Source: Martinezella lusitana
Lineage (GTDB): Bacteria; Pseudomonadota; Alphaproteobacteria; Rhizobiales; Rhizobiaceae
Direction: 5' to 3'
Length of the DNA: 64,000 nucleotides
Assembly (NCBI RefSeq): GCF_010668395.1
Contig: NZ_WUEY01000002.1
Location: forward strand, 310,001-374,000
Both the position numbers and the translations under genes were made by a program. This document shows, one piece after another, positions 2 through 14,433 of the stretch. Each line of letters begins with the position of its first letter. The first letter of the stretch is position 1. A model generated the notes under the pieces. That model was not told the DNA's origin and made no database searches. It saw nothing but the letters and a program-made list of their open reading frames with translations.

Positions 2-628
2 TCGAGCTATGCATCGGAAGTCACAGCCGGCATGGCCGGTAATCCGGACGGCCTCTATCTCGTCAGCACGCCGGTCGACGGCGCGACCATCGCCCGCACC
101 TGGATTTCGCAGGGCGGCCCGCAGAAATTCCTGCTCAACGACGGCATGAACAGCCCGGACTTCATCGATTCCGTCGGGGCCGACTATCTGAAAGACGCCT
201 ACGGCACCTCGTCGGGCACCACGCCGACGCCGTCGACCGATTACTTCAACAAGAACTACAAGGATTTCTCGGGCATCGAGCCGTCCAATCCGGCTGCCGA
301 CCGCGCCTATGATGCCGGCGCGATCGTCGGCCTCGCGCTTGCGATCGCCGGCGACGACACATCGAAGCTGAAGGATGCCATGTTCAAGGTCGTCGATCCG
401 AATGGCACGCCGATCTACGCCGGCAAGGAGGAATTCGCCAAGGCCCTCGGCCTGATCAAGGAAGGCAAGCCGATCCGCTACGAAGGCGTCATCGGACCGG
501 TCTCCTTCGATCAGTATGGCGACATCACCGGCCCCTTCCGCCTTTGGAAGATCGCCGACGGCAAGGTCGCGACCGATGGCGAATTGTCGATGGAAGACGT
601 CTCGGCCCTCAAGGACAAGATCAAGTAG
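2..628 (+). CDS. ABC transporter substrate-binding protein, amino-acid type (3' part only)
   Basis: The reading frame is open from the first bases of the window, so the gene starts upstream and only about 208 C-terminal residues are visible. The sequence has the look of the C-terminal lobe of leucine/isoleucine/valine-type periplasmic binding proteins (Peripla_BP_6). It reads a new-lobe start, a DRAYDAGAIVGLAL helix typical of that family, and a final PFRLWKIADGKV strand. Such proteins bind amino acids or related small molecules in the periplasm and hand them to an ABC permease, which must lie outside the window. A strong hairpin follows the stop. The substrate cannot be told from this fragment; the flavin oxidase downstream might act on it, but they are separated by 133 bases. 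Confidence 0.75.
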   Translation, partial: SSYASEVTAGMAGNPDGLYLVSTPVDGATIARTWISQGGPQKFLLNDGMNSPDFIDSVGADYLKDAYGTSSGTTPTPSTDYFNKNYKDFSGIEPSNPAADRAYDAGAIVGLALAIAGDDTSKLKDAMFKVVDPNGTPIYAGKEEFAKALGLIKEGKPIRYEGVIGPVSFDQYGDITGPFRLWKIADGKVATDGELSMEDVSALKDKIK

Positions 629-651
629 GCCACCAATCCATTCAGGAGAAC

Positions 652-675
652 GAGGCGCTCCGGTCGGAGCGCCTC
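652..675 (+). terminator. Hairpin after the binding-protein gene
   Basis: A perfect 10-bp inverted repeat (GAGGCGCTCC, loop GGTC, GGAGCGCCTC) lies 24 bases after the stop codon at 628. No T-run follows, so it may be a weak terminator or an mRNA 3'-end stabiliser rather than a classical intrinsic terminator. Confidence 0.5.
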
Positions 676-761
676 GTGCGAAGAAAATCCCTGCGCAATC
701 CCTTCAGCGGCTGACCGGTCGAGACCGCTCCCTGGCATAGTTATTGAGAGATCCTCCGCTG

Positions 762-2060
762 ATGCCCAGCCACGTTGCTCGCCCCATCAATCCGACCTTG
801 TGGACGCTGACGGCCAGCCGCGCTCCCGAGCTTTCAAGCGAGGCTCCCTCGCGTTGCGACGTCGTCGTGATCGGCGCCGGCTTCACCGGTCTGACCGCGG
901 CCCTTCATCTTACCCGTGCCGGCCGCTCGGTCACCGTTCTCGAGGCCGGACAATTGGGAGCCGGCGCGAGCGGCATGAATGCCGGCTTCGTCGTCCCGAA
1001 TTTCGCCAAGGCCGATCCGGCCACGGTGCGCCAGAAGCTGCCGAGCGCCGAGGCGGATGCGCTGCTGTCGCTTGTTGGCTCCGGTGCCGACCAGGTTTTC
1101 GCGATCATTGCAGAGGAGCAGATCGCCTGCGACGCCGCGCAGACCGGCTGGCTACAGCCAGCCTATGGCGACGACATGGCGCAGATCCTGCGCCGGCGGG
1201 CAAAGGATTGGACGGAGCTCGGCCGTCCCGTCGACTTTCTCGACGCGCGCGCCATCCGCAACGAAACGGGCATGGACATCTATTCCGGAGGATTGATCGA
1301 CCGTTCCGGCGGCACCATCCATCCGTTGAACTATCTCTACGGACTTGCGCGCGCGGTAACGCGGCGTGGCGGCGTGATCCGCGAGAACAGCCGGGTTGAA
1401 AGCGTCGAACGAGACGGCGGAACCTGGCGCATCGGTTTCGCGGATCATGAGATCGAAGCGGAAGCCGTCATTCTCGCCACCAATGCCTTTACCGACGGCA
1501 TAGCCTCGCGCATGGGGCGAACCGGCGTGCCACTCAAGGTCTATCAGGTAGCGACCAAGCCAATCGACACCGAGACCGTTGCGCGCATCGCACCGAACCG
1601 CCGCCCCGTCGGCGATACGCGTTCCAACCTTTTCACCTACCGGCTCGACCGCGACAACAGGCTGATCAGCGGCGGCATGGCGATCAATCCGATCGGCGCC
1701 TTCGAGCGCGTCGGCCGTGCCGTCGTCGACCGGCTCGTCTCCGAGCTTCGCCTGCCGCGCCATCCGGGTATCGAGATCGTCTGGACCGGCACCGCCGTCA
1801 TGACGCCGGATTTCCTGCCGCGCCTCTACCGCTTCGGCGAGGGCTTTTTCGGGGGCATCGGCTGCAATGGCCGCGGCATCGCCATGACGGCGCAGCTCGG
1901 CCGGACGCTTGCGAGGCTGGCGCTCGGCGAACCGGCGGAATCCCTGCCGATCCCGCTCCAATCCAGCCGCCCGCTGCCCTTTCACGCGCTCACGCCCATG
2001 GTCGCTTCGCTGGCGTTGGCGCATGCGCGCTTTCAAGATTGGCGAAGCAGCCGCCCATAA
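762..2060 (+). CDS. FAD-dependent oxidoreductase, DAO family
   Basis: This 432-residue flavoenzyme has an N-terminal dinucleotide-binding motif (DVVVIGAGFTGLTAALHL, about residues 33-50) followed by the GxGASGMNAGFV segment typical of D-amino-acid/gamma-glutamylputrescine oxidase relatives (DAO family). The C-terminal part carries the GGIGCNGRGIAMTAQLG motif that closes around FAD in this family. Such enzymes oxidise secondary or primary amines of amino acids or polyamines, giving H2O2 or reducing a quinone. The ATG at 762 is preferred because GAGAG lies about 11 bases upstream; an in-frame TTG at 744 lacks that support. The preceding binding-protein gene could supply an amino-acid-type substrate, which is inference. 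The exact substrate is unknown. Confidence 0.8.
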   Translation: MPSHVARPINPTLWTLTASRAPELSSEAPSRCDVVVIGAGFTGLTAALHLTRAGRSVTVLEAGQLGAGASGMNAGFVVPNFAKADPATVRQKLPSAEADALLSLVGSGADQVFAIIAEEQIACDAAQTGWLQPAYGDDMAQILRRRAKDWTELGRPVDFLDARAIRNETGMDIYSGGLIDRSGGTIHPLNYLYGLARAVTRRGGVIRENSRVESVERDGGTWRIGFADHEIEAEAVILATNAFTDGIASRMGRTGVPLKVYQVATKPIDTETVARIAPNRRPVGDTRSNLFTYRLDRDNRLISGGMAINPIGAFERVGRAVVDRLVSELRLPRHPGIEIVWTGTAVMTPDFLPRLYRFGEGFFGGIGCNGRGIAMTAQLGRTLARLALGEPAESLPIPLQSSRPLPFHALTPMVASLALAHARFQDWRSSRP

Positions 2061-2233
2061 GAGCCGACATCACGGTCGTCAGAAATAGAAGCGCGACAAC
2101 AGGCAGTAATTAACCAGCAATTCTATAGATAAAGAAACGAAGAAGCGACCGCGTCCGCAAAAACGAAATGCCTTTTCTCGAAGCCCGGCTTCGAATGCTG
2201 CATCGTGGCGCCGAATGAAATCGGAGTCCGCCT

Positions 2234-3451
2234 ATGAACGCGCAACTGCATCATCTCACCTCCAAGCACCCCGAGGCCACATTGCTTGAGAGCGAGCAAC
2301 ATGCATTGGCCGTGGCACAGGAGCTTGCCAAGCTCTTCGCTGCTACCGCCTCGGAACGTGACGGCGAGCGGCTGCTTCCCTTCGCCGAGATGGATGCCCT
2401 GTCGCAATCGGGACTATTGGCGATCACCGTTCCGGAAGAGTATGGCGGCCTGGATGTCTCGAATGCAACTCTGGCCGAGATCACGGCGACCCTCGCCCAG
2501 GCGGACGGCTCGATCGGGCAGATCCCGCAGAATCATTTTTACATCCTCGAGGCCTTGCGCATCGACGGTTCCGAAGACCAGAAGCGCTACTTCTTCAGCC
2601 GCGCATTGGCCGGCGACCGCTTCGGCAATGCCCTGTCCGAGAGGGGCACGAAGACGGTCGGGCACTACAATACCCGTATTGTCCGCGACGGCCCGGGCTA
2701 TCGCATCAATGGCCGCAAGTTCTATTCGACAGGCGTTCTTTTCGCCGATTGGATAACGGTATTCGCGCTGGATGAAGCCGACAAGCTCGTGATGGCCTTC
2801 GTTCCGAAAGGCACCGAGGGCGTCGAAATCATCGATGATTGGGATGGCTTCGGGCAGCGCACGACAGGCAGCGGCACCACGGTCCTCAACAATGTCTATG
2901 TGAATGCGGATCATGTCGTCCTCCATCACAAGGGTTTCGAACGGCCGACGACCATCGGCTCCGTCGGCCAGATCATCCATGCCGGCATCGATCTCGGTAT
3001 CGCCAGGGCCGCCTTCGCCGAGACGCTTGATTTCGTGAAGACCAGATCCCGCCCCTGGATGGATAGCGGCGTCGAGCGCGCCAGCGACGACCCGCTGACA
3101 ATCGCCAGGATCGGCCAGATCGCCATCCGGCTGGAAGCAGCAGCCGCGACCATCGAGCGCGCCGGCCGCAAGGTCGATGCCGCGCAGGTCGAGACCACCG
3201 AAAAAAGAGTGGTCGAGGCAACCCTCGCCGTTGCGGCGGCCAAGGTATTGACGACGGAAATTGCCATCGAGGCAACGAATACGCTATTCGAACTGGCCGG
3301 AACGGCATCGGTCAAGCTCGACCTCAATCTCGACCGTCACTGGCGCAACGCCCGCACGCATACGCTCCACGACCCGGTTCGCTGGAAATATCACGTCGTC
3401 GGCAACTACCACCTCAACGACGTCCTTCCGCCGAAGAACGGCGCGCTCTGA
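2234..3451 (+). CDS. SfnB/DszC-like acyl-CoA-dehydrogenase-fold flavin monooxygenase
   Basis: A 405-residue protein of the acyl-CoA dehydrogenase fold. It matches the SfnB/DszC branch, which uses reduced FMN and O2 to oxygenate sulfur compounds rather than dehydrogenating acyl-CoA. Visible marks are the N-terminal helical domain with VPEEYGGL (about residues 66-73), a central beta domain (ALSERGTKTVGHYNT; NGRKFYSTG) and the C-terminal HWRNARTHTLHDP motif, which is also present in the neighbouring paralogue at 3522-4727. GGAG precedes the ATG by about 8 bases. It lies convergent to that paralogue with a shared terminator. No flavin reductase is encoded nearby, so FMNH2 must come from elsewhere. 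The substrate is unknown; sulfone- or sulfoxide-type oxygenation is inferred from the family. Confidence 0.8.
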   Translation: MNAQLHHLTSKHPEATLLESEQHALAVAQELAKLFAATASERDGERLLPFAEMDALSQSGLLAITVPEEYGGLDVSNATLAEITATLAQADGSIGQIPQNHFYILEALRIDGSEDQKRYFFSRALAGDRFGNALSERGTKTVGHYNTRIVRDGPGYRINGRKFYSTGVLFADWITVFALDEADKLVMAFVPKGTEGVEIIDDWDGFGQRTTGSGTTVLNNVYVNADHVVLHHKGFERPTTIGSVGQIIHAGIDLGIARAAFAETLDFVKTRSRPWMDSGVERASDDPLTIARIGQIAIRLEAAAATIERAGRKVDAAQVETTEKRVVEATLAVAAAKVLTTEIAIEATNTLFELAGTASVKLDLNLDRHWRNARTHTLHDPVRWKYHVVGNYHLNDVLPPKNGAL

Positions 3452-3469
3452 CAAAAGCTCAAACAAAAG

Positions 3470-3501
3470 CCCCGTTGCCGATGTCCGGCAACGGGGTTTT
3501 T
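3470..3501. terminator. Bidirectional intrinsic terminator
   Basis: An 11-bp perfect stem (CCCCGTTGCCG / CGGCAACGGGG, loop ATGTC) is followed by five Ts on the plus strand. The minus strand leaves the hairpin into a T-rich CTTTTGTTT. It sits between two convergent genes ending at 3451 and 3522 and should end both transcripts. Confidence 0.85.
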
Positions 3502-3521
3502 GCATGGCCGGCGATATCAGA

Positions 3522-4727
3522 TCAACTATAGAGGCTGATCTCGGGAATCCTGTCGTTCAGAACGAACTCCCCGACCTCCTTGGCTTTGTAGAAAACCGGG
3601 TCGTGCAGGGTATGAGTCCGCACATTGCGCCAGAAGCGATCGAAGCGATATTTCTCGGCGGTCGAGCGCGCTCCGGTGAGCTCGAAGACGCGTGATGTTA
3701 TGTCCAGGGACGTGTGCGTGGCATTGACCTTTGCCGCATAGGCTTCAGCCGCCGCTTCTCCGCGTTCACGCGCCGTCGCCTTGTGCCCTTTGGCAAGGGC
3801 CTTCTGGACCGCTGCTGCAGCATTGTCGGCCAGCGCAGCCGACGCCTTCAGAGCGGCGGTGAATTCGCCGACACGCTCCAGAATATACGGATCGTCCGAT
3901 GCGCGCTCGACGCCGGAGGTTACCCAGGGGCGCGTCGTGGTGCGGACATAATCGAGAGCCTCGCGCAGCGCTCCTTCGGCCGTACCGAGATAGAAGTTCA
4001 CGAAGACCAGCTGAATGAGCGGCGTGTTGAACGTGGCAAGAACCGGTGCCTCGCCGCCGGTCGATGCCGCCCTGTCCAGATCCTCTTCATAGACCGGAAA
4101 ATCGTGGAACTCGACGCTGCCGCTGTCGGACACGCGCTGGCCGAAATTGTCCCAGTCGTCATTGGCCTTGTAGCCCGCGCGGTTGGTTGGGACGGCAAAG
4201 CCCACGATCTTGTCGTCGAGCGCCGCATTGGCGTTGATGTAATCGGAAACATGGGCGGCCGTGGAGAAGGATTTGCGGCCATTCAAAACATAGCCGTTGC
4301 CGCGGCGCGTCAGCACGAGGCCGGGATCGCGGGGATTGACGGCGGCACCCCAGTAAAGGCTGTTGGCAACCGTCTTGCCGCCGAGTTCCTGCGCACGCCC
4401 CTCGTCGAAGGCCCAATAGACATATTGGCTGTTGACGTAATGATAGCCGAGAAGCTGTCCGATGGAGCTTTCTCCGCGCGCGAGGATGCGAACCAGCCGC
4501 AAGCCATCCACCCAATCGAGACCACCGCCGCCGATCTGCGACGCATGCAGGGCGTTCAGCAATCCCGCATTCTTTAACTTGACGATTTCGCCGAGCGGCG
4601 GACGACCTTCACGATCGAGCTCCGCGGCGCGCTTGGAAAGATCCGCGGCAATCTCTTCCGCTCTGGCAAAGAGGTCTTCCCGCGTGGCGTTTCTGTTGCT
4701 GGCGAAGACGACGTTGGACTGGCTCAT
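3522..4727 (-). CDS. DszC/SfnB-like flavin monooxygenase (second copy)
   Basis: A 401-residue protein of the same acyl-CoA dehydrogenase-fold monooxygenase family as the gene at 2234-3451. It shares the DRFWRNVRTHTLHDP motif near the C-terminus, WDNFGQRVSDSGSVEF in the middle domain and RPWVTSGVERASDDPY in the helical domain. The family oxygenates organosulfur compounds using FMNH2 delivered by a separate reductase. It lies 73 bases downstream of the binding-protein gene at 4800-5843 on the same strand, so the two are probably co-transcribed. CCGGAG lies about 10 bases before the ATG. The two copies are clearly divergent, suggesting different steps or substrates rather than a recent duplication. 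Confidence 0.8.
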   Translation of the reverse strand: MSQSNVVFASNRNATREDLFARAEEIAADLSKRAAELDREGRPPLGEIVKLKNAGLLNALHASQIGGGGLDWVDGLRLVRILARGESSIGQLLGYHYVNSQYVYWAFDEGRAQELGGKTVANSLYWGAAVNPRDPGLVLTRRGNGYVLNGRKSFSTAAHVSDYINANAALDDKIVGFAVPTNRAGYKANDDWDNFGQRVSDSGSVEFHDFPVYEEDLDRAASTGGEAPVLATFNTPLIQLVFVNFYLGTAEGALREALDYVRTTTRPWVTSGVERASDDPYILERVGEFTAALKASAALADNAAAAVQKALAKGHKATARERGEAAAEAYAAKVNATHTSLDITSRVFELTGARSTAEKYRFDRFWRNVRTHTLHDPVFYKAKEVGEFVLNDRIPEISLYS

Positions 4728-4799
4728 GATGTGAACTCCGGTTCATGGACGTAATCCGGCGGGATCGAGGGATCCCGCCGGCGGATCGAGGTCGGCTGC

Positions 4800-5843
4800 C
4801 TAGAAAAGCTTGTCCGGAATCCAGCTGGCGGTCACCGCATCGCTCGTGCTGAAGGCCGGGATTTTCTGCGCCAGTTCCTCGATCGTCTTGACGCCGGCGG
4901 CGCGAAGCCCGTCCTGCGTCAGCAGCGTCGGCTTGACCGTGATCTGGTGCGGCACCTCCTGCCCTGCCACCTGCAGCGCGGCAGCACGGATGGACACGGC
5001 GCCGACGACGGCCGGATTGGTCGCAACCGTCGCGACCCAAGGGCTGCCCGGCTCGGTGATTTCCTGAATGTCGGCCGTCGACACATCAGCCGAATAGATC
5101 TTCAGCTTGTTGGCGATGCCGAGGTCGGTGGCGGCGAGCTTCACGCCGCGGGCGAATTCGTCATAAGGAGCGAAGACGACGGTGATATCGGGATTGGCCG
5201 TCAGCGCCGCCTTCGCCTGGTCGGCCGTCGACGTCGCCGTGGTATCGCTGACATTGCCGAAGCGGGCTTTTTCGACGACCCCGGCATTCTGCTTCTTGAA
5301 GCTGTCCCAGACCTCGTTGCGGCGGTCGAGCGGCGCAAAGCCGGCGACATAGACATAGCCCGCCTTGAAGCTGTCGCCATTCTCCTTGACGACCTGCTTC
5401 AGGGCGAGATCGGCAAGCTCGTGATCGCTCTGTTCGACCTGCGGAATCTTCGGATTGTTGAGATTGACGTCGAAAGCGACGACCTTAATGCCCTTGTCGA
5501 GCGCCTGCTGGACGACATCGCCAAGCGATTCCGGCAGGCCGTGGTCGATGACGATGGCCGAGACGCCGAGATTGATCGCCTGGAGGATCTGCTCGCGCTG
5601 GGCGGCAGCGTCCTGACGGCCCGGGAAGACGCGGAGATCGATGGCAAGCGCCTTGGCCTGCGCTTCGGCGCCGGCCTGATAGGCCTGGAAGAAGTCGCCG
5701 GCGGAGATATAGCTGATGAGAGCAACCTTCACGCCACCCTTGTCGAAGGGAGCAGGCGCGCCGCTCACGCCATCGGCCAGCGCAGCCTGTGTAACAAGAA
5801 GAGGGGCAACGGCCGACAAGGCAAGCCGTGTGATAAATTTCAT
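4800..5843 (-). CDS. Sugar-type ABC transporter substrate-binding protein (Sec exported)
   Basis: A 347-residue periplasmic binding protein of the ribose/LacI-like type (Peripla_BP_4). The start at 5843 gives a clear Sec signal peptide (MKFITRLALSAVAPLLVTQAAL, cleavage near ALADG) and has GTGAGGA just upstream; an upstream in-frame start at 5864 would spoil the signal. The first lobe begins VKVALISYISAGDFFQAYQ and contains the IVIDHGLPESL and VVAFDVNL strands of this fold. It is the first gene of a minus-strand pair with the DszC-like monooxygenase. It is divergent from a second binding protein of the same class, yet only one membrane transporter is encoded (7313-10852). Sharing that transporter is inference. 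Confidence 0.82.
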   Translation of the reverse strand: MKFITRLALSAVAPLLVTQAALADGVSGAPAPFDKGGVKVALISYISAGDFFQAYQAGAEAQAKALAIDLRVFPGRQDAAAQREQILQAINLGVSAIVIDHGLPESLGDVVQQALDKGIKVVAFDVNLNNPKIPQVEQSDHELADLALKQVVKENGDSFKAGYVYVAGFAPLDRRNEVWDSFKKQNAGVVEKARFGNVSDTTATSTADQAKAALTANPDITVVFAPYDEFARGVKLAATDLGIANKLKIYSADVSTADIQEITEPGSPWVATVATNPAVVGAVSIRAAALQVAGQEVPHQITVKPTLLTQDGLRAAGVKTIEELAQKIPAFSTSDAVTASWIPDKLF

Positions 5844-6248
5844 CGTCGCGATCCTCACGATCAATCGGAAGCGTCGTCTGACGGAACGATGACCTGCGAC
5901 GCATACAATTATTAGATATAAACTCTATGTTTTTAGTAGATTTAATCATTCGATTTTGCCGGCCTTCGGAGATTCTTTGTTCGCCGGCCGAATGGATGGC
6001 GGCAAGGACATGCCTCGCGAATGGGCCCCTGTTCGACGCACAATCCCGATACCCGCCCGGATTCCGCGAGCACCGATTGAACACGACCAGCCTCTATGGC
6101 CGCAAAAACCCGATATGCCTGATATCGAGATGGCATCATGGAAATTTCCACATGCGCGCCGGTTTTGGAAAAACGTTTCTCCGTAATTATTTAAATCTAT
6201 CTATTTTGTAATCTATTGGCATTTTTGGATTGCTGGAAAGGTACTTTC
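5844..6248. promoter_or_regulatory. Divergent promoter region of the organosulfur-type module
   Basis: This 405-base gap between two divergent binding-protein genes has no convincing gene. Both ends are AT-rich (for example around 5905-5950 and 6180-6220), unlike the surrounding GC-rich coding DNA, as expected of two outward-facing promoters. A dyad CGATAT-GCCTG-ATATCG lies at 6111-6127. No regulator gene is encoded inside the module, so control is presumably by a regulator located elsewhere. Confidence 0.5.
6111..6127. promoter_or_regulatory. Candidate operator dyad
   Basis: A perfect 6-bp inverted repeat, CGATAT and ATATCG, separated by 5 bases, in the divergent intergenic region about 120 bases before the plus-strand binding-protein gene. 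The size fits a transcription-factor site, but one short dyad in 400 bases could be chance. Confidence 0.3.
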
Positions 6249-7256
6249 ATGACCAATGAGAAAACGACCGGACTTGGACGCCGGGATATTCTGAAGCTGA
6301 CCGCCGCTGCCGGGACCGCGCTCGCCGCTTCGAGCCTCCTGTCGAAGACCGCCGCGGCTGCCGACGACGCCCTGTCGTTGAAAGGCAAGCGCGTTGCGAT
6401 CAGCGCGACCGGAACGGATCACTATTTCGACCTTCAGGCCTACAATGCGCAGATCGAAGAGGTGAAGCGGCTGGGCGGCACGCCAATCGCCGTCGATGCC
6501 GGCCGCAACGACGGCAAGCTGGTCTCGCAGCTGCAGACGCTGATCGCACAGAAGCCGGACGCCATCGTCCAGATCCTCGGCACGCTGAGCGTCATCGATC
6601 CCTGGCTGAAAAAGGCGCGCGATGCCGGCATTCCCGTTTTGACCGTCGACGTCGGCTCGACCAACTCGGTCAACAACACCACGTCGGACAATTGGGGCAT
6701 CGGCAAGGACCTGGCGCTGCAGCTCGTCTCCGACATCGGCGGCGAAGGCAATATCGTCGTCTTCAACGGCTTCTATGGCGTGACGCCCTGCGCAATCCGC
6801 TACGATCAGCTCGTCAACGTCGTCAAATACTTCCCGAAGGTGAAGATCATCCAGCCGGAGCTTCGGGATGTCATTCCGAACACGGTCCAGGACGCCTTTG
6901 CCCAGATCACCGCGATCCTCAACAAGTATCCGGAGAAGGGGTCGATCAAGGCGATCTGGTCCGCCTGGGACATTCCGCAGCTCGGCGCCACGCAGGCCCT
7001 CGCCGCCGCCGGCCGCACCGAAATCCGCACCTACGGCGTCGATGGCAGCCCGGAAGTTCTGCAGCTCATCGCCGATCCCAATTCACCGGCAGGTGCCGAT
7101 GCGGCCCAGCAGCCGGCCGAAATCGGCCGCACCGCCATCCGCAATGTCGCCAAGCTGCTTTCAGGACAGACGCTGCCGCGCGAAACCTATGTCCCTGCCC
7201 TTCTGGCGAACAAGAGCAACGTCTCTGACGTGATCAAGAAGCTCGGCATCGGCTGA
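6249..7256 (+). CDS. Sugar-type ABC transporter substrate-binding protein (Tat-like signal)
   Basis: A 335-residue periplasmic binding protein of the Peripla_BP_4 class and the first gene of the importer operon. The N-terminus carries a twin-arginine-like signal (GLGRRDILKLTAAAG, then a hydrophobic stretch and TAAAADD), implying export in folded form; the divergent partner at 4800-5843 has an ordinary Sec signal. The ATG at 6249 has GGAAAGG about 9 bases upstream. The two-lobe fold is visible in RVAISATGTDHYFDLQAYN, PDAIVQILGTL and VLTVDVGSTNSVNN. It is followed after 56 bases by the ATPase gene. The ligand is unknown; the flanking monooxygenases suggest a sulfur-containing or glycoside-like compound. 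Confidence 0.85.
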   Translation: MTNEKTTGLGRRDILKLTAAAGTALAASSLLSKTAAAADDALSLKGKRVAISATGTDHYFDLQAYNAQIEEVKRLGGTPIAVDAGRNDGKLVSQLQTLIAQKPDAIVQILGTLSVIDPWLKKARDAGIPVLTVDVGSTNSVNNTTSDNWGIGKDLALQLVSDIGGEGNIVVFNGFYGVTPCAIRYDQLVNVVKYFPKVKIIQPELRDVIPNTVQDAFAQITAILNKYPEKGSIKAIWSAWDIPQLGATQALAAAGRTEIRTYGVDGSPEVLQLIADPNSPAGADAAQQPAEIGRTAIRNVAKLLSGQTLPRETYVPALLANKSNVSDVIKKLGIG

Positions 7257-7312
7257 TCTGCAAACAGGCGATGCGGATGCTCCGCATCGCCCCTCATGCG
7301 AAGGGCATTTTC

Positions 7313-8863
7313 ATGACCGCACCAGAGCAGGCGAATACGGCGGAGAGTGCGCCGCATATCCTGCGTTTCGATGGCATCGTCAAGCGCTTCGGCGGCGCAA
7401 CGGCGCTCGCCGGAGCCTCTCTTGCCATCAGGCCTGGCACCGTCCACGGGCTTGTCGGGCAAAACGGCGCCGGCAAATCGACGCTGATCAAGCTTCTGGC
7501 AGGCTTGCACACTCCGGACGAGGGCAGCATCGAGATCGAAGGGCGGGCCCACGATCGCCTGACGCCGCATCTGTGCGAAGATCTCGGCATTCACTTCATC
7601 CATCAGGATCGGCTGCTCGTTCCGACATTCACCGTCGGAGAGTCCCTCTTTCTCGGCCGGGAAATTCGCCTCGGCAAAACGCCCTTCCTCGACCGCAGCG
7701 CCATGCAACGCCGCGCCAGCGAACTCCTTGCCAATTATTTCGGCGTGGATCTGCCGAAGAATGCCCTCATCGGCGAGCTTTCGACAGCGGAACGGCAAAT
7801 CGTCCAGATCACCCGCGCTCTGCTGCACAAGCCGAAGATCCTCGTCTTCGACGAGCCGACGGCGGCGCTGGTGCGGCAGGAAGCGGAGATCTTGTTCCGT
7901 CTCATCCGCCGTCTGCGCAGCGAAGGCGTGACCATCATCTACGTCTCGCATTATCTCAACGAAATCGAGGCGTTGTGCGACGATGTTACCGTGTTGCGCA
8001 ATGGTGTCGACGTTGCTTCCCTGACTGAAAACGAGATATCCGCCGGACGGATCGCGAGCCTGATGGTCGAGCGCGATATCGCAGACATGTTTCCCAAGCG
8101 GAAAGTGGAACTGTGCGGGGAAATCCTCAAGGTTCGCAATCTCTCGGCAACGGGCCGTTTCCATGATGTCAGCTTCTCGCTGCGGCGCGGCGAAATCCTC
8201 GGCATTACCGGATTGCTCGGCTCCGGGGCGAAAGATCTCGTGCGCACCCTGTTCGGACTGCAGACGACAACATCCGGGACGATCGATATCGACACGCGCG
8301 GCCTGAAGCCGTGCAACCCGGTCGAAGCCGTCGATCGCCAGATCGCACTGGTGCCGGAGGACCGGCGCGGCCACGGCGTGGGGCTGGATCTCAGCGTCCG
8401 CGAGAACATCACATTGTCGAGCCTTGGCCGCTATACGCGCTTCGGCTTTCTCGACCGCAAACGGGAGAGCGACGATACCGACGAGCTGATCAGGCGGCTG
8501 CAGATCAAGACTTCCGGTCGCGAAGCGCTGGTGCGCACGCTCTCGGGCGGCAACCAGCAGAAAGTGGCGATTGCCAAATGGCTGAGCCGCCGATCGGAGA
8601 TCTATCTGCTGGACGAGCCGACGGTCGGCGTCGATATCGGTTCGAAAGTCGAGATCTATTCGCTGATCGGCGAGCTTGCCGCGCGCGGCGCCGGCGTGAT
8701 CGTGCTGTCTTCGGACCTACCGGAATTGGTGGGCATCACGGACAGGATTCTGGTCCTGTTCCGCGGCCGCGTCACCCGCGAATTGATTTCCTCACAAACC
8801 ACAACGGACGAAGTTCTGTCGGCATCCACCGGTGCTTCGGAAGGATTGCGCCATGTCGGCTGA
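7313..8863 (+). CDS. Ribose-type ABC transporter ATP-binding protein (duplicated ATPase)
   Basis: A 516-residue fusion of two ABC ATPase domains, as in RbsA/MglA. The first domain has an intact Walker A (GLVGQNGAGKSTLIK), Q-loop (IHQDRLL) and Walker B (ILVFDEPTAAL). Its signature is weak (GELSTAERQ rather than LSGGQ), which is normal for this family. The second domain has a non-canonical Walker A (GLLGSGAKDLVRT), a full LSGGNQQK signature and LLDEPTVGVDIG. It powers import through the two permeases encoded next. The ATG at 7313 has GAAGGG upstream. The last 11 bases overlap the first permease gene, indicating translational coupling. Confidence 0.93.
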   Translation: MTAPEQANTAESAPHILRFDGIVKRFGGATALAGASLAIRPGTVHGLVGQNGAGKSTLIKLLAGLHTPDEGSIEIEGRAHDRLTPHLCEDLGIHFIHQDRLLVPTFTVGESLFLGREIRLGKTPFLDRSAMQRRASELLANYFGVDLPKNALIGELSTAERQIVQITRALLHKPKILVFDEPTAALVRQEAEILFRLIRRLRSEGVTIIYVSHYLNEIEALCDDVTVLRNGVDVASLTENEISAGRIASLMVERDIADMFPKRKVELCGEILKVRNLSATGRFHDVSFSLRRGEILGITGLLGSGAKDLVRTLFGLQTTTSGTIDIDTRGLKPCNPVEAVDRQIALVPEDRRGHGVGLDLSVRENITLSSLGRYTRFGFLDRKRESDDTDELIRRLQIKTSGREALVRTLSGGNQQKVAIAKWLSRRSEIYLLDEPTVGVDIGSKVEIYSLIGELAARGAGVIVLSSDLPELVGITDRILVLFRGRVTRELISSQTTTDEVLSASTGASEGLRHVG

Positions 8864-9872
8864 TGTCCAGTTTGCCTCCCTCCCCGACAATCCGGCGGCA
8901 CAGGCGTTGCCCGCCGGTGGAAAGCTTGCGGCTACGGCCCTGCGGTTCGGTTCGCTGCTTGCCTTTGTCGCGATCCTGGTGATTTTCGCGCTGACTGCGC
9001 CCTACTTCCTGACGGTCGGCAATATCGGCAATGTGCTGGGGCAATCGGCTATTTCGGGCGTGCTCGCCATCGGCCTGACGATCGTCCTGATCGCCGGCGG
9101 CTCCAATGTCGTCACCGGAGGCATAGACCTCTCGCTTGCGGCCAATATGGGCCTGAGCGCCGCCGTCTATGCAACCCTTATCCAGCTCGGCTTCGGCGAT
9201 GCGGCCGCCATAGCCGGCGCGCTCGTCACTGGGCTGGCAATCGGCGCCGTCAATGCCTTGGCGATCGTTTTTGCCGGCATCGTGCCGTTGCTGGCGACGC
9301 TTGCCGTGATGAACGTCGTCGCCGGGCTGGAACTGGTCCTGACGCAGAACACGGTGCTGCCCGCCTCGACCGACCTGCTGACCGTTCTTTCCTCTTCGGA
9401 CGGCTTTGGCATCCCCATCCTTGCCTACGTGCTGATCGGCTTCACCGTCATCGTCGCGGCTATCGTGCAATTCACCCCGCTCGGTCTGAGGCTCTATGCC
9501 GTCGGCGAGTTTCCCGAGGCAGCCCGCGCCGCCGGATTGCCGTTGAGAAGCCTGGTTGCGGGCGCCTTCGTCGCCAGCGGCCTTTGCGGCGGGATCGCCG
9601 GCATTTTGTCGGTCGCCTATCTCAGCGGCAGCACCACCGGCTCGGGCGAGATGCTGCTTCCGGTGGTCGTGACCGCCCTGCTCGGTTCGGTCTTTTCGCG
9701 CCGTCTGGTTCCAACGATCGGCGGCACGCTGATCTCGACGCTATTCGTCGGCTTCCTCATCAACGGCTTCCAGCTGCTCAACCTGCCCAGCACGCTGGTC
9801 AGCGGCGTTCAGGGCCTGCTGATCCTAATCGTGGTGTCGGCAACCACCCTGCTGCGCAAAAGGGAGATCTGA
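8853..9872 (+). CDS. Ribose-type ABC transporter permease 1 (RbsC family)
   Basis: A 339-residue polytopic inner-membrane protein of the RbsC/branched-chain permease superfamily. It has roughly nine or ten hydrophobic segments and the family motif VVTGGIDLSLAANMGLSA (about residues 87-104). The ATG at 8853 overlaps the ATPase gene by 11 bases, and its stop at 9872 lies 2 bases before the next permease. With that second permease it should form a heterodimeric channel energised by the duplicated ATPase, rather than the homodimer usual for RbsC. Confidence 0.9.
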   Translation: MSADVQFASLPDNPAAQALPAGGKLAATALRFGSLLAFVAILVIFALTAPYFLTVGNIGNVLGQSAISGVLAIGLTIVLIAGGSNVVTGGIDLSLAANMGLSAAVYATLIQLGFGDAAAIAGALVTGLAIGAVNALAIVFAGIVPLLATLAVMNVVAGLELVLTQNTVLPASTDLLTVLSSSDGFGIPILAYVLIGFTVIVAAIVQFTPLGLRLYAVGEFPEAARAAGLPLRSLVAGAFVASGLCGGIAGILSVAYLSGSTTGSGEMLLPVVVTALLGSVFSRRLVPTIGGTLISTLFVGFLINGFQLLNLPSTLVSGVQGLLILIVVSATTLLRKREI

Positions 9873-9874
9873 CC

Positions 9875-10852
9875 ATGTCCGCTTCCATTGCATCGGGACG
9901 GCCGCTGGCGAGTGTCGCACGCTACGGGCTCATCGTCGCCCTCATCGCCGTCTTTTCACTGTTTTCGGCAGTCGCGCCGACGTTCCTGAGCGTCGGCAAC
10001 CTGCAGAGCATTCTCGTCAACAACTTCACGCTGCTCGCCATCGTCTCGATCGCCATGACCTTTGCCGTCGCTGCCGGCGGCATCGACCTTTCGGTCGGGA
10101 CGGCCGTCGACTTTGCGAGCTTCGCGTTCGTCTCTGGCATACTGGCTGGCCTGCCCGTGCCGCTTGCCGCTCTCGCGGGCCTTGGCGCGGGCGCTTTGGT
10201 CGGCGCATTCAATGCGGTGCTGATTTCGGCGATCGGCGTATCGCCATTCCTGGCAACGCTCGGAACGCTGTTCATCGGCCGCAGCATACAACAGCTGCTG
10301 ACGGATGGCGGCAACCCGGTCTATCTGCCGCCATCGGGCGTACCGGAGGCTTTTCGCTTTATCGGGCATGGAACGCTCGGCAACATCCCCGTGCCGCTTC
10401 TGATCGCCGCCATTATCATCGCGGGCACGGCCCTTTTGTTCGCACGCATGCGTTTCGGCCGCGTCGTGCTTGCCATCGGCATCCAGCCGCGCACGGTGCG
10501 CTATTCGGGGATCGGCCTGGCAAAGCATGTGGCCGTGACTTTCATTCTCGCCAGCACGATTGCCGCCTTTGCCGGGCTGATCCTGACGGCGACGGTCACG
10601 GTCTATATCCCCTCCTCCGGCAACGGCTTCATGCTCAACGCCATCGGCGCCACCTTCATCGGCACGACCTTTTCGCCGCTGGGCCGGCCGAACGTGGCCG
10701 GCACGGTGCTCGGCGTCCTGCTTCTGAGCATCGTCGCCAATGGCCTGCTGCTGACAGGCCTGAACTTCTACTGGCAGCAGGTCGGCACCGGCCTCCTGAT
10801 CTTCGCCGTGCTCGCCTTCAGCTTCGTCAACAAGAAAGCCGTCGGCGCCTGA
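9875..10852 (+). CDS. Ribose-type ABC transporter permease 2 (RbsC family)
   Basis: A 325-residue polytopic membrane protein homologous to the preceding permease. It has the same VAAGGIDLSVGTAVDF family motif (about residues 66-81) and multiple hydrophobic helices through FVNKKAVGA at the end. The ATG at 9875 follows the previous stop by 2 bases and has AGGGAG about 9 bases upstream; the open frame extends further upstream inside the previous gene but without support. It is the last transporter gene of the operon. The DszA-like monooxygenase follows after 36 bases. Confidence 0.9.
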   Translation: MSASIASGRPLASVARYGLIVALIAVFSLFSAVAPTFLSVGNLQSILVNNFTLLAIVSIAMTFAVAAGGIDLSVGTAVDFASFAFVSGILAGLPVPLAALAGLGAGALVGAFNAVLISAIGVSPFLATLGTLFIGRSIQQLLTDGGNPVYLPPSGVPEAFRFIGHGTLGNIPVPLLIAAIIIAGTALLFARMRFGRVVLAIGIQPRTVRYSGIGLAKHVAVTFILASTIAAFAGLILTATVTVYIPSSGNGFMLNAIGATFIGTTFSPLGRPNVAGTVLGVLLLSIVANGLLLTGLNFYWQQVGTGLLIFAVLAFSFVNKKAVGA

Positions 10853-10888
10853 GCGCCGGCCGAACGATACAATCGCAGGAACAGCAAT

Positions 10889-12286
10889 ATGACACGCGAA
10901 ATCAGGCTCAACGCCTTCGACATGAATTGCGTCGGACACCAGTCACCGGGCCTTTGGCGCCATCCGCGCGACAAATCCTGGACCTACAAGGACCTCGATT
11001 ATTGGGTCCATCTGGCAAAGACGCTGGAGCGCGGCAAATTCGACGGCCTGTTCATCGCAGACGTGCTCGGAGTCTATGATGTGCTGAACGGCAATGTCGA
11101 TGCGGCCCTGCGCCATTCCGCACAAGTGCCGGTCAACGATCCGCTGCAGCTCATTCCGACCATGGCCTACGAGACCGAGCATCTCGGCTTTGGGTTGACC
11201 GCGTCGCTGTCCTTCGAACATCCCTATACGTTCGCCCGGCGCATTTCGACCCTCGACCACCTGACGAAGGGCCGCGTCGGTTGGAACATCGTCACTTCCT
11301 ATCTGAACAGCGGCGCCCTGAACATCGGCCAGACTGGCCAGACGCAGCATGACGACCGCTATGCGCTGGCGGAGGAATATCTCGAAGTCTGCTACAAGCT
11401 CTGGGAAGGCAGCTGGGAAGACGACGCCGTCATCCGCGATCGCGAAAAGGGTATTTTCACGCGGCCGGAGAAGGTGCATCCGATCCGCCATTCCGGCACG
11501 CATTTCAACGTCCCCGGCATTCATCTCAGCGAGCCGTCGCCGCAGCGTACCCCCGTGCTCTATCAGGCGGGAGCATCCAGCCGCGGCAAGGATTTTGCCG
11601 GCGCGCATGCCGAGTGCATCTTCGTCGCCGCGCCCTCCAAGGCAGTGCTGAAGCGCTATGTCGCCAATGTTCGCGAGGCGGCCGAGCGTGTCGGCCGCAA
11701 TCCCCGCGAAATCCTGTCCTTCAACCTCCAGACCGTGATCCTCGGCGAGACCGATGCCGAGGCACAGCGCAAGTTCAACGAATACCGCCAATATGTTTCC
11801 CTCGAAGGGGCGCAGACGCTGATCTCCGGCTGGACGGGCATCGATTTCGGCCAGTTCTCCCCCGACGAGGTGCTTCGCCACCGCTACACCAACGCGGTGC
11901 AATCCGCCGTCGAGACCTTCACCACGATCGACCCGGACAAGGAATGGACCGTGCGCGAAATGGCCGATTGGGTCGGCATCGGCGGCTTCGGCCCGGTGTT
12001 CGTCGGCTCGCCGCAGACCGTCGCCGATCTCATGCAGGAGTGGATCGAGGATACTGATGTCGACGGCTTCAATCTGGCCTATGCCGTGACGCCCGAAAGC
12101 TTCGAGGATGCCGTCGATCTCCTGGTGCCGGAATTGCAGAAGCGCGGCGTCTACAAGACCGAGTATCGCACAGGCACGCTGCGGGAAAAGCTTGGCGGCA
12201 GCGGCCCGAGGCTTGCCGCGCCGCATCCGGCGAGCGGCTATCGCAACCTTGGCGAAACCACGAGCGCTTCTCGACGGGTCGGGTAG
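10889..12286 (+). CDS. DszA/NtaA-like LLM-class flavin-dependent monooxygenase
   Basis: A 465-residue bacterial luciferase-like enzyme of the NtaA/SnaA/DszA/SoxA branch, which uses FMNH2 and O2. Typical segments are an N-terminal barrel start (IRLNAFDMNCVGHQSPGLW), HPYTFARRISTLDHLTKGR, GWNIVTSY (the family's signature near residue 133) and SPQRTPVLYQAGASSRGKDFA. DszA cleaves the C-S bond of a sulfone made by DszC, and relatives cleave aminopolycarboxylates. With two DszC-like enzymes in the same module, a sequential S-oxygenation then C-S cleavage pathway is the natural inference. It follows the importer genes by 36 bases and is convergent with the TetR gene, whose stop lies 3 bases away. The in vivo substrate is unknown. 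Confidence 0.88.
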   Translation: MTREIRLNAFDMNCVGHQSPGLWRHPRDKSWTYKDLDYWVHLAKTLERGKFDGLFIADVLGVYDVLNGNVDAALRHSAQVPVNDPLQLIPTMAYETEHLGFGLTASLSFEHPYTFARRISTLDHLTKGRVGWNIVTSYLNSGALNIGQTGQTQHDDRYALAEEYLEVCYKLWEGSWEDDAVIRDREKGIFTRPEKVHPIRHSGTHFNVPGIHLSEPSPQRTPVLYQAGASSRGKDFAGAHAECIFVAAPSKAVLKRYVANVREAAERVGRNPREILSFNLQTVILGETDAEAQRKFNEYRQYVSLEGAQTLISGWTGIDFGQFSPDEVLRHRYTNAVQSAVETFTTIDPDKEWTVREMADWVGIGGFGPVFVGSPQTVADLMQEWIEDTDVDGFNLAYAVTPESFEDAVDLLVPELQKRGVYKTEYRTGTLREKLGGSGPRLAAPHPASGYRNLGETTSASRRVG

Positions 12287-12289
12287 ACC

Positions 12290-12961
12290 TCAGGCAAAGG
12301 GCTCCGCCAGCATCGCCTCCAGATCCGCCTTCGCCTCGGCCGAAAGATAGGGGCGCAACAGGCTTGCGACCTGGCAGAGCCCCCAATGCACATGCCGGGG
12401 CGTCAGGTCGCGCACCCCTTCCTGAAGGCCGAGATAGACGGCAAAATAGGTCGAAACGATCCACATATTGGTCATCAGCGGCTTGCGCTCGTCCGCCGCG
12501 ACACGGATCAGGCCGGCATCCTCCATTCGCTGAAAGATGACATCGACGGACAGGCGCATACCGGCGCTGACCATCAGGATGGGCGTTCGCAAGCCGGGGG
12601 CGATTGCCAGCAGGCCCGGAATGTCGCGAAACAGGAAGCGGTGGGTCCAGACGAGGGAGAACCATTTACGCAGAAAGCCGGCATAGGCTTTCGAATCCGC
12701 GCCTGCGACGGCACCGGCCTGCTCGACCAGCGCCAGCGCATCGGCTTCGAAGCGCGAAAACAGGGCCAGCACCAGCGATTCCTTGGTGCGGAAGTGATAG
12801 TAGAGATTGCCCTGGTTGATATGCACGGACTTTGCGATTTCCGCGGTCGTCACCGCCTCCGGGCCCTTGTGGTTGAAGAGCGACAAGGTCGAGGCGAGGA
12901 TCCGTTCGCGCGTATCGGACCCGGCCGCAACCCCTGTCTTTTTGCCTTTGTTTGCCGGCAT
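12290..12961 (-). CDS. TetR/AcrR-family transcriptional regulator
   Basis: A 223-residue regulator. The N-terminal DNA-binding domain spans about residues 17-64 (DTRERILASTLSLFNHKG, then TTAEIAKSVHINQGNLYYHF, the standard TetR helix-turn-helix). The rest is an all-helical ligand-binding domain (TetR_C type). It is transcribed away from the cytochrome P450 gene, with a 107-base gap that holds two identical-architecture palindromes. The simplest reading is a repressor of itself and of the P450, released by a small hydrophobic ligand related to the P450 substrate. The last point is inference from family behaviour. Confidence 0.9.
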   Translation of the reverse strand: MPANKGKKTGVAAGSDTRERILASTLSLFNHKGPEAVTTAEIAKSVHINQGNLYYHFRTKESLVLALFSRFEADALALVEQAGAVAGADSKAYAGFLRKWFSLVWTHRFLFRDIPGLLAIAPGLRTPILMVSAGMRLSVDVIFQRMEDAGLIRVAADERKPLMTNMWIVSTYFAVYLGLQEGVRDLTPRHVHWGLCQVASLLRPYLSAEAKADLEAMLAEPFA

Positions 12962-12983
12962 GCTCTTTCCCCACTTGAAGCCC

Positions 12984-12999
12984 TAAGGTATCCACCTTA
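12984..12999. promoter_or_regulatory. Probable TetR operator, site 1
   Basis: The palindrome TAAGG-TATCCA-CCTTA, with six-base arms if extended (TAAGGT/ACCTTA), lies in the gap between the divergent TetR and P450 genes. Its partner has the same geometry and starts exactly 23 bases later. Confidence 0.65.
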
Positions 13000-13006
13000 T
13001 TCTTTG

Positions 13007-13022
13007 TAAGGCAAATACCTTA
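13007..13022. promoter_or_regulatory. Probable TetR operator, site 2
   Basis: The palindrome TAAGG-CAAATA-CCTTA repeats the arms and spacing of the site at 12984-12999. The start-to-start distance of 23 bases is close to two helical turns, so both sites would face nearly the same side of the DNA. It lies 46 bases before the P450 start codon. Confidence 0.65.
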
Positions 13023-13068
13023 ATCCTGATCTACAGGCATCCGCCGGGGCGAACAAGGAGATAGAAGG

Positions 13069-14433
13069 ATGAATGCAAGCGTGAACGCTGCCGATCTCTC
13101 GCAGACGTTCCCCCTCACCCCGCGCTCGATGCCGCATGTCCTGCTTTCGCTGATCCGCAATCCGCTCGATGCGCTGCCGCCGGAAGTCTTCACCGAGCCC
13201 GTCGTCTTCACCAAAGTCGGGGGAAAGCTTAGGGTCTATCTCACCGACCCCGAACTCATCTATCAGGCGCTGGTCCGCAATTCCGATGCGCTCGGCAAGG
13301 GTGAGGATGTCCGTCGTGTTCTGGGGCCTGCGCTCGGAAACGGCATCCTGACCTCGGACGGCGCGCACTGGAAATGGCAGCGCCAATCGGTGGCCGGCGC
13401 CTTTCGCCACGAAAAGCTTCTGGAGCTGCAGCCGGCGATGATCGCAGCTGCCGGGCGCAGGCGCGATCTCTGGCTCGCCGACAAGAATGGCCCCATCGAC
13501 CTATGCCCGGAGATGATGCGCACGACCTTCGATATTATCGTCGGGACGATGATGTCGGGCGGCGATGGCATCGATGTCGACAAGGTCGAGCGCAATATCA
13601 CCAACTACCTCAAGCCGACCGGCTGGAAATTCGCGCTCGGGCTGCTCGGCCTACCGGAGTGGATGCCTCATCCCGGCAAGGAAAAGGCACGATCGGCCGT
13701 TGCCTTCCTGCGGGCAACTCTCGGGGCCGTGATTGCCGAGCGGCGGCGGAGCGGCGAGGAAAGGAGCGATCTGGTCTCCATGCTCCTCGGCGCCGCCGAC
13801 CCCGAAACCGGCCGTCAAATGAATGACGAGGAGGTCATTGATAACCTCATGACCTTCATCACCGCCGGACATGAAACGACGGCGCTCGGTCTTGCCTGGA
13901 CCTTCCATCTGCTCGCCCGCCATCCCGACTGCCAGGCGAGACTCTTCGAAGAGATCACCACGGTGACGGGCGGAGGCCCTCTTCTTGGCGAGCATGTCGC
14001 CAGGCTCACCTATGCCAGGCAGGTCTTTTCCGAGGCCATGCGGCTTTATCCGCCGGCGCCGATCATCTCGCGCGCGGTGGTGCGCGAATTCACCATCGGC
14101 GCGCATACCATTCCGGCCGGCACCATCATCTATGTGCCGATCTACGCCGTGCATCGCCATGCTGACCTGTGGGAAGAGCCGCAGCTCTTCGATCCCGACC
14201 GCTTCGAGCCGGAAACGGCGCGCAATCGCCATCGCTATGCCTTCATGCCCTTCGGCGCCGGGCCCCGCGTCTGCATCGGCAATGCCTTTGCGATGATGGA
14301 GGCGGTGGCGATCCTCGCCGTCCTGCTGCAGACCTTCCGCGTGACCGGCTCGAACGAGCCCTCGCCGAAGCCGGTCATGAAGGTCACATTGCGGCCGATG
14401 CATCCGCTAACGCTCAATCTCATCGAGCGCTAG
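13069..14433 (+). CDS. Cytochrome P450
   Basis: A 454-residue P450. It has the I-helix oxygen-activation motif AGHETTALG (about residues 265-273), the ExxR helix in SEAMRLYPPAP, a meander PxRF-like DRFEPE, and the haem loop FGAGPRVCIGN with the thiolate cysteine near residue 402. The sequence resembles the CYP102/CYP4-like bacterial class with a long substrate channel rather than camphor-type P450s, so fatty-acid or hydrophobic substrates are plausible. It has no fused reductase and no ferredoxin or ferredoxin reductase gene nearby, so electrons must come from elsewhere. AAGGAGA lies upstream of the ATG. Regulation by the divergent TetR protein is likely. Confidence 0.92.
   Translation: MNASVNAADLSQTFPLTPRSMPHVLLSLIRNPLDALPPEVFTEPVVFTKVGGKLRVYLTDPELIYQALVRNSDALGKGEDVRRVLGPALGNGILTSDGAHWKWQRQSVAGAFRHEKLLELQPAMIAAAGRRRDLWLADKNGPIDLCPEMMRTTFDIIVGTMMSGGDGIDVDKVERNITNYLKPTGWKFALGLLGLPEWMPHPGKEKARSAVAFLRATLGAVIAERRRSGEERSDLVSMLLGAADPETGRQMNDEEVIDNLMTFITAGHETTALGLAWTFHLLARHPDCQARLFEEITTVTGGGPLLGEHVARLTYARQVFSEAMRLYPPAPIISRAVVREFTIGAHTIPAGTIIYVPIYAVHRHADLWEEPQLFDPDRFEPETARNRHRYAFMPFGAGPRVCIGNAFAMMEAVAILAVLLQTFRVTGSNEPSPKPVMKVTLRPMHPLTLNLIER

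Follow-up and report, generated by a model that had tools for sequence, protein, structure and literature searches.

Why should flavin enzymes of the kind that release sulfur from organic compounds be encoded around an ABC importer of the kind that takes up sugars? The question is raised by an eight-gene cluster at positions 2234-12286 of the DNA examined here, a 64-kb window (contig C33:310001-374000; all positions are those of the whole window) of the 7.75 Mb genome of Martinezella lusitana (G000, below the home genome), for which the closest named relatives come from Rhizobium (R. tropici, R. hainanense and R. lusitanum among them). On balance, we favor the explanation that the cluster serves the sulfur-regulated uptake of a ribo-configured thio-sugar, most likely 5-methylthioribose (MTR) or a compound close to it, for example MTR sulfoxide, and that the sulfur would then be freed by flavin monooxygenation rather than through MtnK and MtnA. 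A role in sulfur scavenging is very probable; that the cargo is a thio-sugar is probable, although less so, and that it is MTR itself is possible but somewhat doubtful.

Gene content of the cluster

All eight open reading frames (ORFs) of the cluster run uninterrupted from start to stop:

2234..3451, + strand: SfnB-family flavin oxidoreductase (TIGR04022, 611.7 bits, above the cut-off of 430.9)
3522..4727, - strand: DszC-like flavin oxygenase, outside the named models; adjoins SBP2 on the same strand
4800..5843, - strand: SBP2, binding protein of the 5-methylthioribose importer family (Peripla_BP_4; kin of 4ry8)
6249..7256, + strand: SBP1, CUT2 binding protein (Peripla_BP_4; kin of 4wt7; Tat-like leader, judged by eye)
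7271..8863, + strand: double ABC ATPase of CUT2 type (two ABC_tran stretches)
8853..9872, + strand: permease A (BPD_transp_2, 83.6 bits)
9875..10852, + strand: permease B (BPD_transp_2, 101.8 bits)
10889..12286, + strand: LLM1, NtaA/DmoA-family monooxygenase dependent on flavin mononucleotide (TIGR03860, 577.3 bits, above the cut-off of 279.7)

As the initial annotation of this DNA had it, two DszC/SfnB-like enzymes and one DszA-like enzyme, here the luciferase-like monooxygenase (LLM) LLM1, surround a complete sugar-type importer. In it, Peripla_BP_4, the double ATPase and the BPD_transp_2 permeases follow one another in a single gene run (6249-10852), the composition of a CUT2 (RbsABC-like) system. 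The cut-offs for RbsABC proper are not reached (RbsA 444.3 of 745; RbsB 58.3 for SBP1 and 40.5 for SBP2, of 337; RbsC 92.9 and 130.7 of 398), and the best named models for the ATPase, XylG, AraG and RbsA, each score under their cut-offs. The DszC-like protein falls below both the DszC model (NF043015, 287.7 bits against 850) and the SfnB model (258.4 against 430.9), with DszC and a methanesulfinate monooxygenase among its solved relatives, and the SfnB protein likewise falls below NF043015 (222.9 against 850). LLM1 had been labeled DszA-like, but the protein lies nearer to DmoA than to DszA (551 vs 240 bits) and far under the cut-off of the SsuD model (64.6 of 518.2). It is 54.0% identical to the dimethyl-sulfide monooxygenase DmoA (6ak1) over 437 aligned positions. 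The window has no match to the flavin reductase family PF01613, all 14 matches lying elsewhere in the genome, so that reduced flavin would come in trans.

The two binding proteins

Both binding proteins that had been noted in the cluster are Peripla_BP_4 proteins, but they are of different families: by sequence, SBP1 is of the polyol/pentose type, and SBP2 belongs to the MTR binding family. The best solved relative of SBP2 is 4ry8 (E 3e-63), whose entry title begins "Crystal structure of 5-methylthioribose transporter solute binding protein TLET_1677", and the AlphaFold model of SBP2 (pLDDT 85.4) compares better with 4ry8 (Z 38.6, 37% identity) than with 5ulb (35.1) or with ordinary sugar proteins (31.5 or less). 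A tree groups SBP2 and SBP2b, a third paralogue encoded on contig C25 of the home genome, beside the mtn proteins with support of 90/97.

The binding pocket was compared at 13 of the 14 ribose contacts of E. coli RbsB, mapped by alignment rather than from ligand coordinates. SBP2 carries the majority residue of 20 mtn-type proteins (nine of them with mtnK seen beside them) at 12 of these 13 positions, and the residue of 4ry8 at nine. Minority residues at the pocket positions come from four of the 20 mtn-type rows, all from one other bacterial family, and one of these genomes, G210, has no mtnK within 19.5 kb. The pocket is altered in the group of SBP2b (F51W, F52L, D100N, Y227W and A252V, in 13 of 13 rows). 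Kinship of family and pocket makes MTR a candidate ligand of SBP2. The earlier proposal of a bulky, sugar-like or nucleoside-like sulfur cargo is borne out insofar as the family points to MTR, a sugar-like sulfur compound, but nothing requires a bulky cargo.

A more restricted version of this explanation, which overlaps with it, would have SBP2 drifted away from an MTR protein toward another thio-nucleoside or thio-sugar, such as MTR sulfoxide, 5-methylthioadenosine or other S-alkyl thioriboses. It would agree with the one pocket exception, D100, where the mtn-type majority is Q, with the 27 alignment columns that set the SBP2 group apart from the mtn-type proteins, and with the separate mtn importer that the home genome has kept (see below); on the other hand, D is also the residue of 4ry8 at this position and the other 12 mapped positions fit the mtn-type majority, and we regard this version as rather doubtful.

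In allitol and in ribose alike, all hydroxyls are on the same side, and by this common pattern SBP1 and SBP2 both point to ribo-configured ligands. The structure nearest to SBP1 is 4wt7 from Agrobacterium vitis (E 2e-175), which, by the title given in PMC10318746, was solved with allitol bound. The AlphaFold model of SBP1 itself (pLDDT 48.6) was not used.

Among nine plasmid regions around more distant homologues of SBP2, five have mtnK, two have oxygenases and two have neither. Those of Shinella, S. meliloti, Pararhizobium, Klebsiella and Priestia combine the homologue with mtnK and mtnA in one cluster, and those of Agrobacterium leguminum and Burkholderia stagnalis have oxygenases around it.

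Conservation and co-occurrence

Conservation was examined in the best 80 of 529 loci from a search with an SBP2 profile, with flanks of up to 10 kb as fetched. A DszC-like gene is present in 74 of them, SfnB in 70, LLM1 in 63, SBP1 in 44 and a second LLM gene in 17; an ATPase (ATP2) and/or permease (Perm2) belonging to SBP2 itself, which we refer to as importer 2, occurs in 62. Three of the six loci that lack DszC are contigs of under 12 kb as fetched. None of the 80 has mtnK or mtnA, and they are thus not methionine salvage operons. The frequencies of the DszC-like, SfnB and LLM1 genes mean that the grouping is not due to chance, and the neighborhood comparison proposed with the initial annotation has thereby come out in favor of monooxygenases conserved together with sugar-type importers. 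The idea that the eight genes form one indivisible unit was rejected, given that SBP1 is found in the fetched flanks of only 44 of the 80 loci. In R. johnstonii TP25 the SBP1 importer is encoded at another place on the plasmid, where it too is preceded by a site (22.6 bits) of the operator described below.

A second view was taken from 151 genomes drawn evenly from the bacterial family, the home genome included, with matches to the SBP2 family counted at E 1e-60 or better and with p-values uncorrected for kinship. The SBP2 clade comprises 11 matches at 76-100% identity, of which seven lie within 15 kb of DszC and none within 5 kb of mtnK; its sister set comprises 45 matches at 51-58% identity, 43 of them with mtnK within 5 kb. 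With the home genome excluded, DszC and SBP2 (in 11 and 10 genomes) occur together in nine, against 0.73 expected, DszC and SBP1 (11 and 11) in 10, and DszC and LLM1 (11 and 14) in 11. In the draft genomes G009, G094 and G113, SBP2 and DszC are on separate contigs, and the co-occurrence consequently does not come from close linkage alone.

Related combinations exist in several arrangements. Outside the family, a Methylobacterium plasmid unites SfnB with the importer of SBP1, importer 2, SBP2 and a gene of DszC/SfnB type; the order in Burkholderia stagnalis is importer 2-SfnB-SfnB-LLM-SBP2; and G466, of the same phylum and another family, has importer 2 with SfnB and SBP2. Shinella HZN7 has a run of SfnB, LLM, the SBP1 importer, SfnB, DszC and LLM. 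The LLM gene of the B. stagnalis locus (L012:8465-9834+) is split over two reading frames and has no coding sequence in the listed annotation. An FtsZ-like ORF of 339 amino acids, recognized by eye, lies near DszC in eight of the 80 loci (for example L024:12684-13703+).

A shared operator and a probable sulfur regulon

Comparison of promoters first pointed to a common AT-rich motif. Gibbs sampling of 41 promoters of SBP1, SBP2 and SfnB genes returned an 18-bp motif of 757 bits, compared with 480 for shuffled sequences (standard deviation 7, maximum 496; 15 dinucleotide shuffles, run with five restarts and 45 iterations rather than the 12 and 60 of the real run). It contains a 17-bp palindrome, TCTATA-N5-TATAGA, which occurs in the window as follows:

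5924..5940, no strand: 17-bp palindromic operator TCTATGTTTTTAGTAGA, 80 bp upstream of the start codon of SBP2 (20.5 bits)
6196..6212, no strand: operator-like site, 36 bp upstream of the start codon of SBP1 (17.6 bits)
2113..2129, no strand: operator-like site upstream of SfnB, weak in the home genome (13.8 bits)

A gene was counted as preceded by a site if a 17-bp matrix, some of whose training sites come from these same loci, found a site of at least 14 bits within 300 bp upstream. Such sites precede SBP2 in 80 of 80 cases, SBP1 in 41 of 44, ATP2 in 61 of 63 and SfnB in 49 of 70, where the counts include overlapping matches and SBP2 and ATP2 often have one intergenic stretch in common. They precede DszC in four of 75 cases, permease B in none of 45 and the LLM genes labeled LLMrl in none of 37, a label that leaves aside five sites before genes labeled LLM1. 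Of the targets, 231 of 275 carry a site, compared with 33 of 529 stretches that have a comparable AT content and come from other parts of the loci. A matrix built from seven distant sites only (from Shinella, four from three other genera, L084, and L100 of a Rhizobium sp.) scores 5924 at 18.0 bits and 6196 at 13.7, the two highest values in the window; the SfnB site, at 12.1 bits, does not clearly exceed background (12.0 at 56097). No site of at least 14 bits is present at five loci with mtn operons (L013, L014, L019, L020 and L130). In Agrobacterium leguminum, sites of 13.9 and 22.3 bits (L011:13024 and 19301) also lie upstream of a binding-protein gene of SsuA/PhnD type and of a gene for a fatty-acid desaturase.

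The same operator recurs in the home genome. In 20 regions (375 kb) picked around LLM and SfnB matches before scanning, the matrix finds 25 hits of at least 14 bits, compared with 1.65 in block shuffles (maximum four in 20 shuffles), and 17 of at least 18 bits, compared with 0.1; the distant-site matrix finds 24 vs 1.8 and 17 vs 0.03, respectively, overlapping matches again being included. Among the genes neighboring these sites are those for a binding protein resembling SsuA (142.9 of 163.5), a rhodanese, enzymes of the NtaA/DmoA and DszC/SfnB types, OsmC, GcvA-like LysR proteins, and peptide/glutathione-like and polar amino-acid-like binding proteins, with all of the binding proteins below their cut-offs; a weaker site of 15.9 bits lies near a gene for a cysteine-synthase-like protein (316.4 of 344.15). 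Palindrome-marked sites are found on contigs C13, C19, C26, C29, C33, C55 and C99 (L138-L157, L172 and L174).

Eight of the 13 places outside the window that match the simplified pattern TCTAY-N7-RTAGA lie in the 20 regions, which make up 4.88% of the genome (binomial p 3e-8). One of the others is 97 bp upstream of a MetQ-family gene that is followed by a MetN-like gene; another (C19:133712) is 106 bp before cysH, for the adenosine 5'-phosphosulfate/3'-phosphoadenosine 5'-phosphosulfate reductase, which is followed by cysD, both above their cut-offs; a third is 45 bp before another binding-protein gene, and the remaining two have no clear target. Since the operator is common to the cluster, cysHD, the metQN-like pair, the ssuA-like gene and other oxygenase clusters, the cluster is probably part of a sulfur regulon, and there is good sequence evidence that it is regulated together with sulfate assimilation. 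The suggestion that it responds to sulfur limitation agrees with the operator common to cluster and cysHD. An Rrf2 protein encoded on the other side of the cysHD site (CymR model, 77.9 of 195) is a CymR-like candidate for the regulator, as are the products of two GcvA-like LysR genes with sites.

Importer genes and salvage genes elsewhere in the genome

In most relatives, the ATPase and permease of importer 2 are divergent from SBP2; they are absent from the window's cluster and from 18 of the 80 loci, some of these 18 being cut by contig ends. A fuller order is that of Sinorhizobium B11, LLM, PermB, PermA, ATP1, SBP1, Perm2, ATP2, SBP2, DszC and SfnB. We rejected the reading that SBP2 might be another protein of ribose type serving the importer of SBP1, as it is nearer to the MTR proteins than to SBP1 and as 62 of the 80 relatives have its own ATPase and/or permease beside it.

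The home genome has an operon ATP2-Perm2-SBP2b on C25. Its ATPase shares 63-75% and its permease 75-85% identity with importer 2 at SBP2b-linked loci, compared with only 42-52% for the mtn importer. An operator site (17.3 bits) is located 44 bp upstream of the ATPase gene, and SBP2b and SBP2 have a single copy of ATP2 between them in 12 of the 80 loci. Both the likeness and the single shared ATP2 suggest that SBP2 may work here with the C25 importer or with the permeases of SBP1.

On C25, SBP2b is found together with an aldo/keto reductase and a propeller protein of the LVIVD kind; by way of speculation, these two companions could handle aldehyde and thiol products. LVIVD repeat proteins (L021:7236-8501- in the home genome, C25) are found with an SBP2b-type protein in 11 of the 80 loci and also beside an MTR-family binding protein in Rahnella (L018:10976-12223+). 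The protein has a weak match to the SBP56 family (E 2.6e-4, below the cut-off), the members of which include methanethiol oxidase.

Contig C24 of the home genome carries an mtnA-mtnK operon, and this raises the question of whether SBP2 is a redundant uptake branch of methionine salvage that brings in MTR for that operon, with the oxygenases serving something else. The family and the pocket of SBP2 would suit this, as would the operon itself. Opposed to it are the lack of an operator site in the C24 mtn stretch, the lack of mtnK and mtnA near any of the 80 loci, and the other genomes of the SBP2 clade, none of the 10 of which has mtnK where 3.6 would be expected (p 0.014). We therefore consider such a branch very unlikely. 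DszC and mtnK share one of 11 genomes (p 0.098).

Proposed pathway and evidence against it

In the pathway that we propose, SBP2 would capture a methylthio-pentose and pass it to the SBP1 permeases and ATPase or to the unlinked C25 importer, which has the same operator and resembles the missing partner, and SBP1 would capture a second ribo-configured form. By analogy with related enzymes, the DszC-like enzyme and/or SfnB might oxidize the methylthio sulfur with reduced flavin made elsewhere, and LLM1 might cleave the C-S bond, the models being DmoA, which acts on dimethyl sulfide, and CmoJ, which acts on alkylcysteine sulfoxide. The predicted products of the cleavage would be a C1-sulfur fragment and ribose aldehyde, or else formaldehyde and thioribose, and the C1-sulfur would be oxidized onward to sulfite for cysteine synthesis. 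Ligand, reaction order and products are all predicted here; the gene content, its conservation, the family of SBP2 and the common operator are observed. A more specific version, to which we give tentative credence only, is that of a second, kinase-free MTR pathway in which import of the MTR type, sulfoxidation and oxygenolytic C-S cleavage are joined under a sulfur operator, in hosts many of which have no mtnK; SBP2 might then be an MTR protein that has exchanged its MtnK/MtnA partners for oxygenases of the DszC, SfnB and DmoA types.

A number of observations weigh against the proposed pathway. The ligand of the near-twin of SBP1, allitol, is sulfur-free, and relatives of SBP1 at 54-57% identity are in sugar operons with a kinase, dehydrogenases and an aldolase of class II, an observation that counts in favor of a plain sugar as well. 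The C24 mtn operon is the only place of mtnK in the home genome and has its own importer, so that MTR uptake by the cluster would be redundant and the cargo may be a relative of MTR. The exclusion between SBP2 and mtnK is modest. Monophyly of the SBP2 clade is weak (support 75/34), and MTR-family binding proteins occur without mtnK nearby in Bradyrhizobium, Rahnella and G210; in the Bradyrhizobium and Rahnella regions they have neither mtnK nor oxygenases around them, so that membership in the family leaves the ligand unfixed. G071 has DszC-LLM1-SfnB without SBP1 or SBP2, and G120 and G017 have SBP2 and SBP1, respectively, without DszC. The Burkholderia, G466 and Methylobacterium loci have no operator site, and the whole-genome count of TCTAY-N7-RTAGA, 14 places vs 12 for the reversed control, shows no excess.

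Some of these points would be accommodated if the cluster were sulfur-regulated but its importers carried an ordinary pentose or polyol as a carbon source, while the flavin enzymes acted on small diffusible organosulfur compounds (dimethyl sulfide or sulfone, methanesulfinate), the two sets of genes being neighbors only through a common regulator. Allitol in the near-twin, the sugar operons, the proximity of LLM1 to DmoA and the enzymes of G071 without these importers would all be consistent with this arrangement. It makes little sense, however, to place importer genes for a carbon sugar behind an operator of the cysHD type; moreover, SBP2 is of the MTR family with its pocket kept, and the co-occurrence persists across separate contigs. 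We judge a carbon-sugar importer to be unlikely and retain the uptake and oxygenolytic desulfurization of a thio-sugar as the preferred explanation.

Comparison with known systems

A close parallel is the MTR importer MtnXYZ, to whose family SBP2 and importer 2 belong, which works alongside MtnK and MtnA and was, in a passage of PMC4239095, named for MTR uptake. The cluster differs in having DszC-like, SfnB and LLM enzymes where the mtn system has mtnK and mtnA, in an operator that is unseen at mtn loci, and in the lack of SBP2's own permease and ATPase. The sulfoquinovose monooxygenase (sulfo-ASMO) pathway also has a flavin monooxygenase alongside an ABC importer, in that case for a sulfo-sugar glycoside, as described in part of PMC9594981; by comparison, LLM1 is of the NtaA/DmoA family, the importer is of CUT2 type, there are two additional DszC-fold enzymes, and the predicted target is a thioether rather than a sulfonate. 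The view that enzymes of this type normally go only with sulfonate or taurine importers, or with none, was therefore too narrow, as is also evident from the peptide/glutathione-like and polar amino-acid-like binding-protein genes in such regions of the home genome, behind the same operator, and from a MetQ-type importer among such enzymes in Shinella HZN7.

The likeness to the 4S dibenzothiophene pathway (DszABC) consists of a DszC-fold oxygenase and an LLM cleavage enzyme, but neither DszC-fold protein of the cluster reaches the DszC cut-off and LLM1 is the nearer to DmoA. The SfnB/SfnG/MsuC/MsuD pathway scavenges sulfones and methanesulfonate; the cluster shares with it an SfnB that satisfies the model and a sulfur-scavenging setting, and departs from it in its dedicated sugar-type importers and MTR-type binding protein. 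DmoA, DszA, SfnG and CmoJ are grouped in a passage of PMC10863075 as flavoenzymes that break C-S bonds, CmoO and CmoJ acting by sulfoxidation followed by cleavage. This salvage of alkylcysteines resembles the cluster in its two flavoenzymes, its cleavage enzyme of DszA/YxeK type and its occurrence in soil bacteria (PMC10863075, same passage), and differs from the cluster's acyl-CoA-dehydrogenase-fold oxygenases and sugar-type importers; the acetylase and deacetylase of that pathway have no counterpart among ten window proteins scanned.

The enzyme families themselves are already known. Neither a combination of MTR-type and CUT2 importers with oxygenases of DszC, SfnB and DmoA type under a cys operator nor the operator itself was found described in the open-licence literature searched, mostly at the level of titles. 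Polyamine, ethylene and quorum-signal metabolism all yield MTR as a by-product. If the proposed pathway is correct, rhizosphere bacteria could gain the sulfur of MTR without the phosphorylating salvage pathway, and desulfurization chemistry of the DszC/DmoA type would extend to sugars. According to a passage in a review (PMC6302742), MTR is a dead end that is excreted by organisms lacking MtnK, E. coli among them; the E. coli control genome used here does match the MtnK model. The operator provides an independent handle on the organosulfur genes of its own genome, including several uncharacterized oxygenase clusters.

Neighboring genes and minor observations

Two genes border on the cluster, outside its core:

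744..2060, + strand: FAD oxidase, AmaA-like (below the cut-off; accessory, in 12 of the 80 related loci)
12290..12961, - strand: TetR-type regulator (PF13972/PF00440; present in a subset of the 80 loci)

A scan of positions 1-20000 of the window with Rfam at gathering thresholds found nothing. Across the home genome, 33 matches to luciferase-like monooxygenases were counted along with 28 to the SfnB model, four of the latter above its cut-off, and a dense island of such matches lies at C13:121984-148878.

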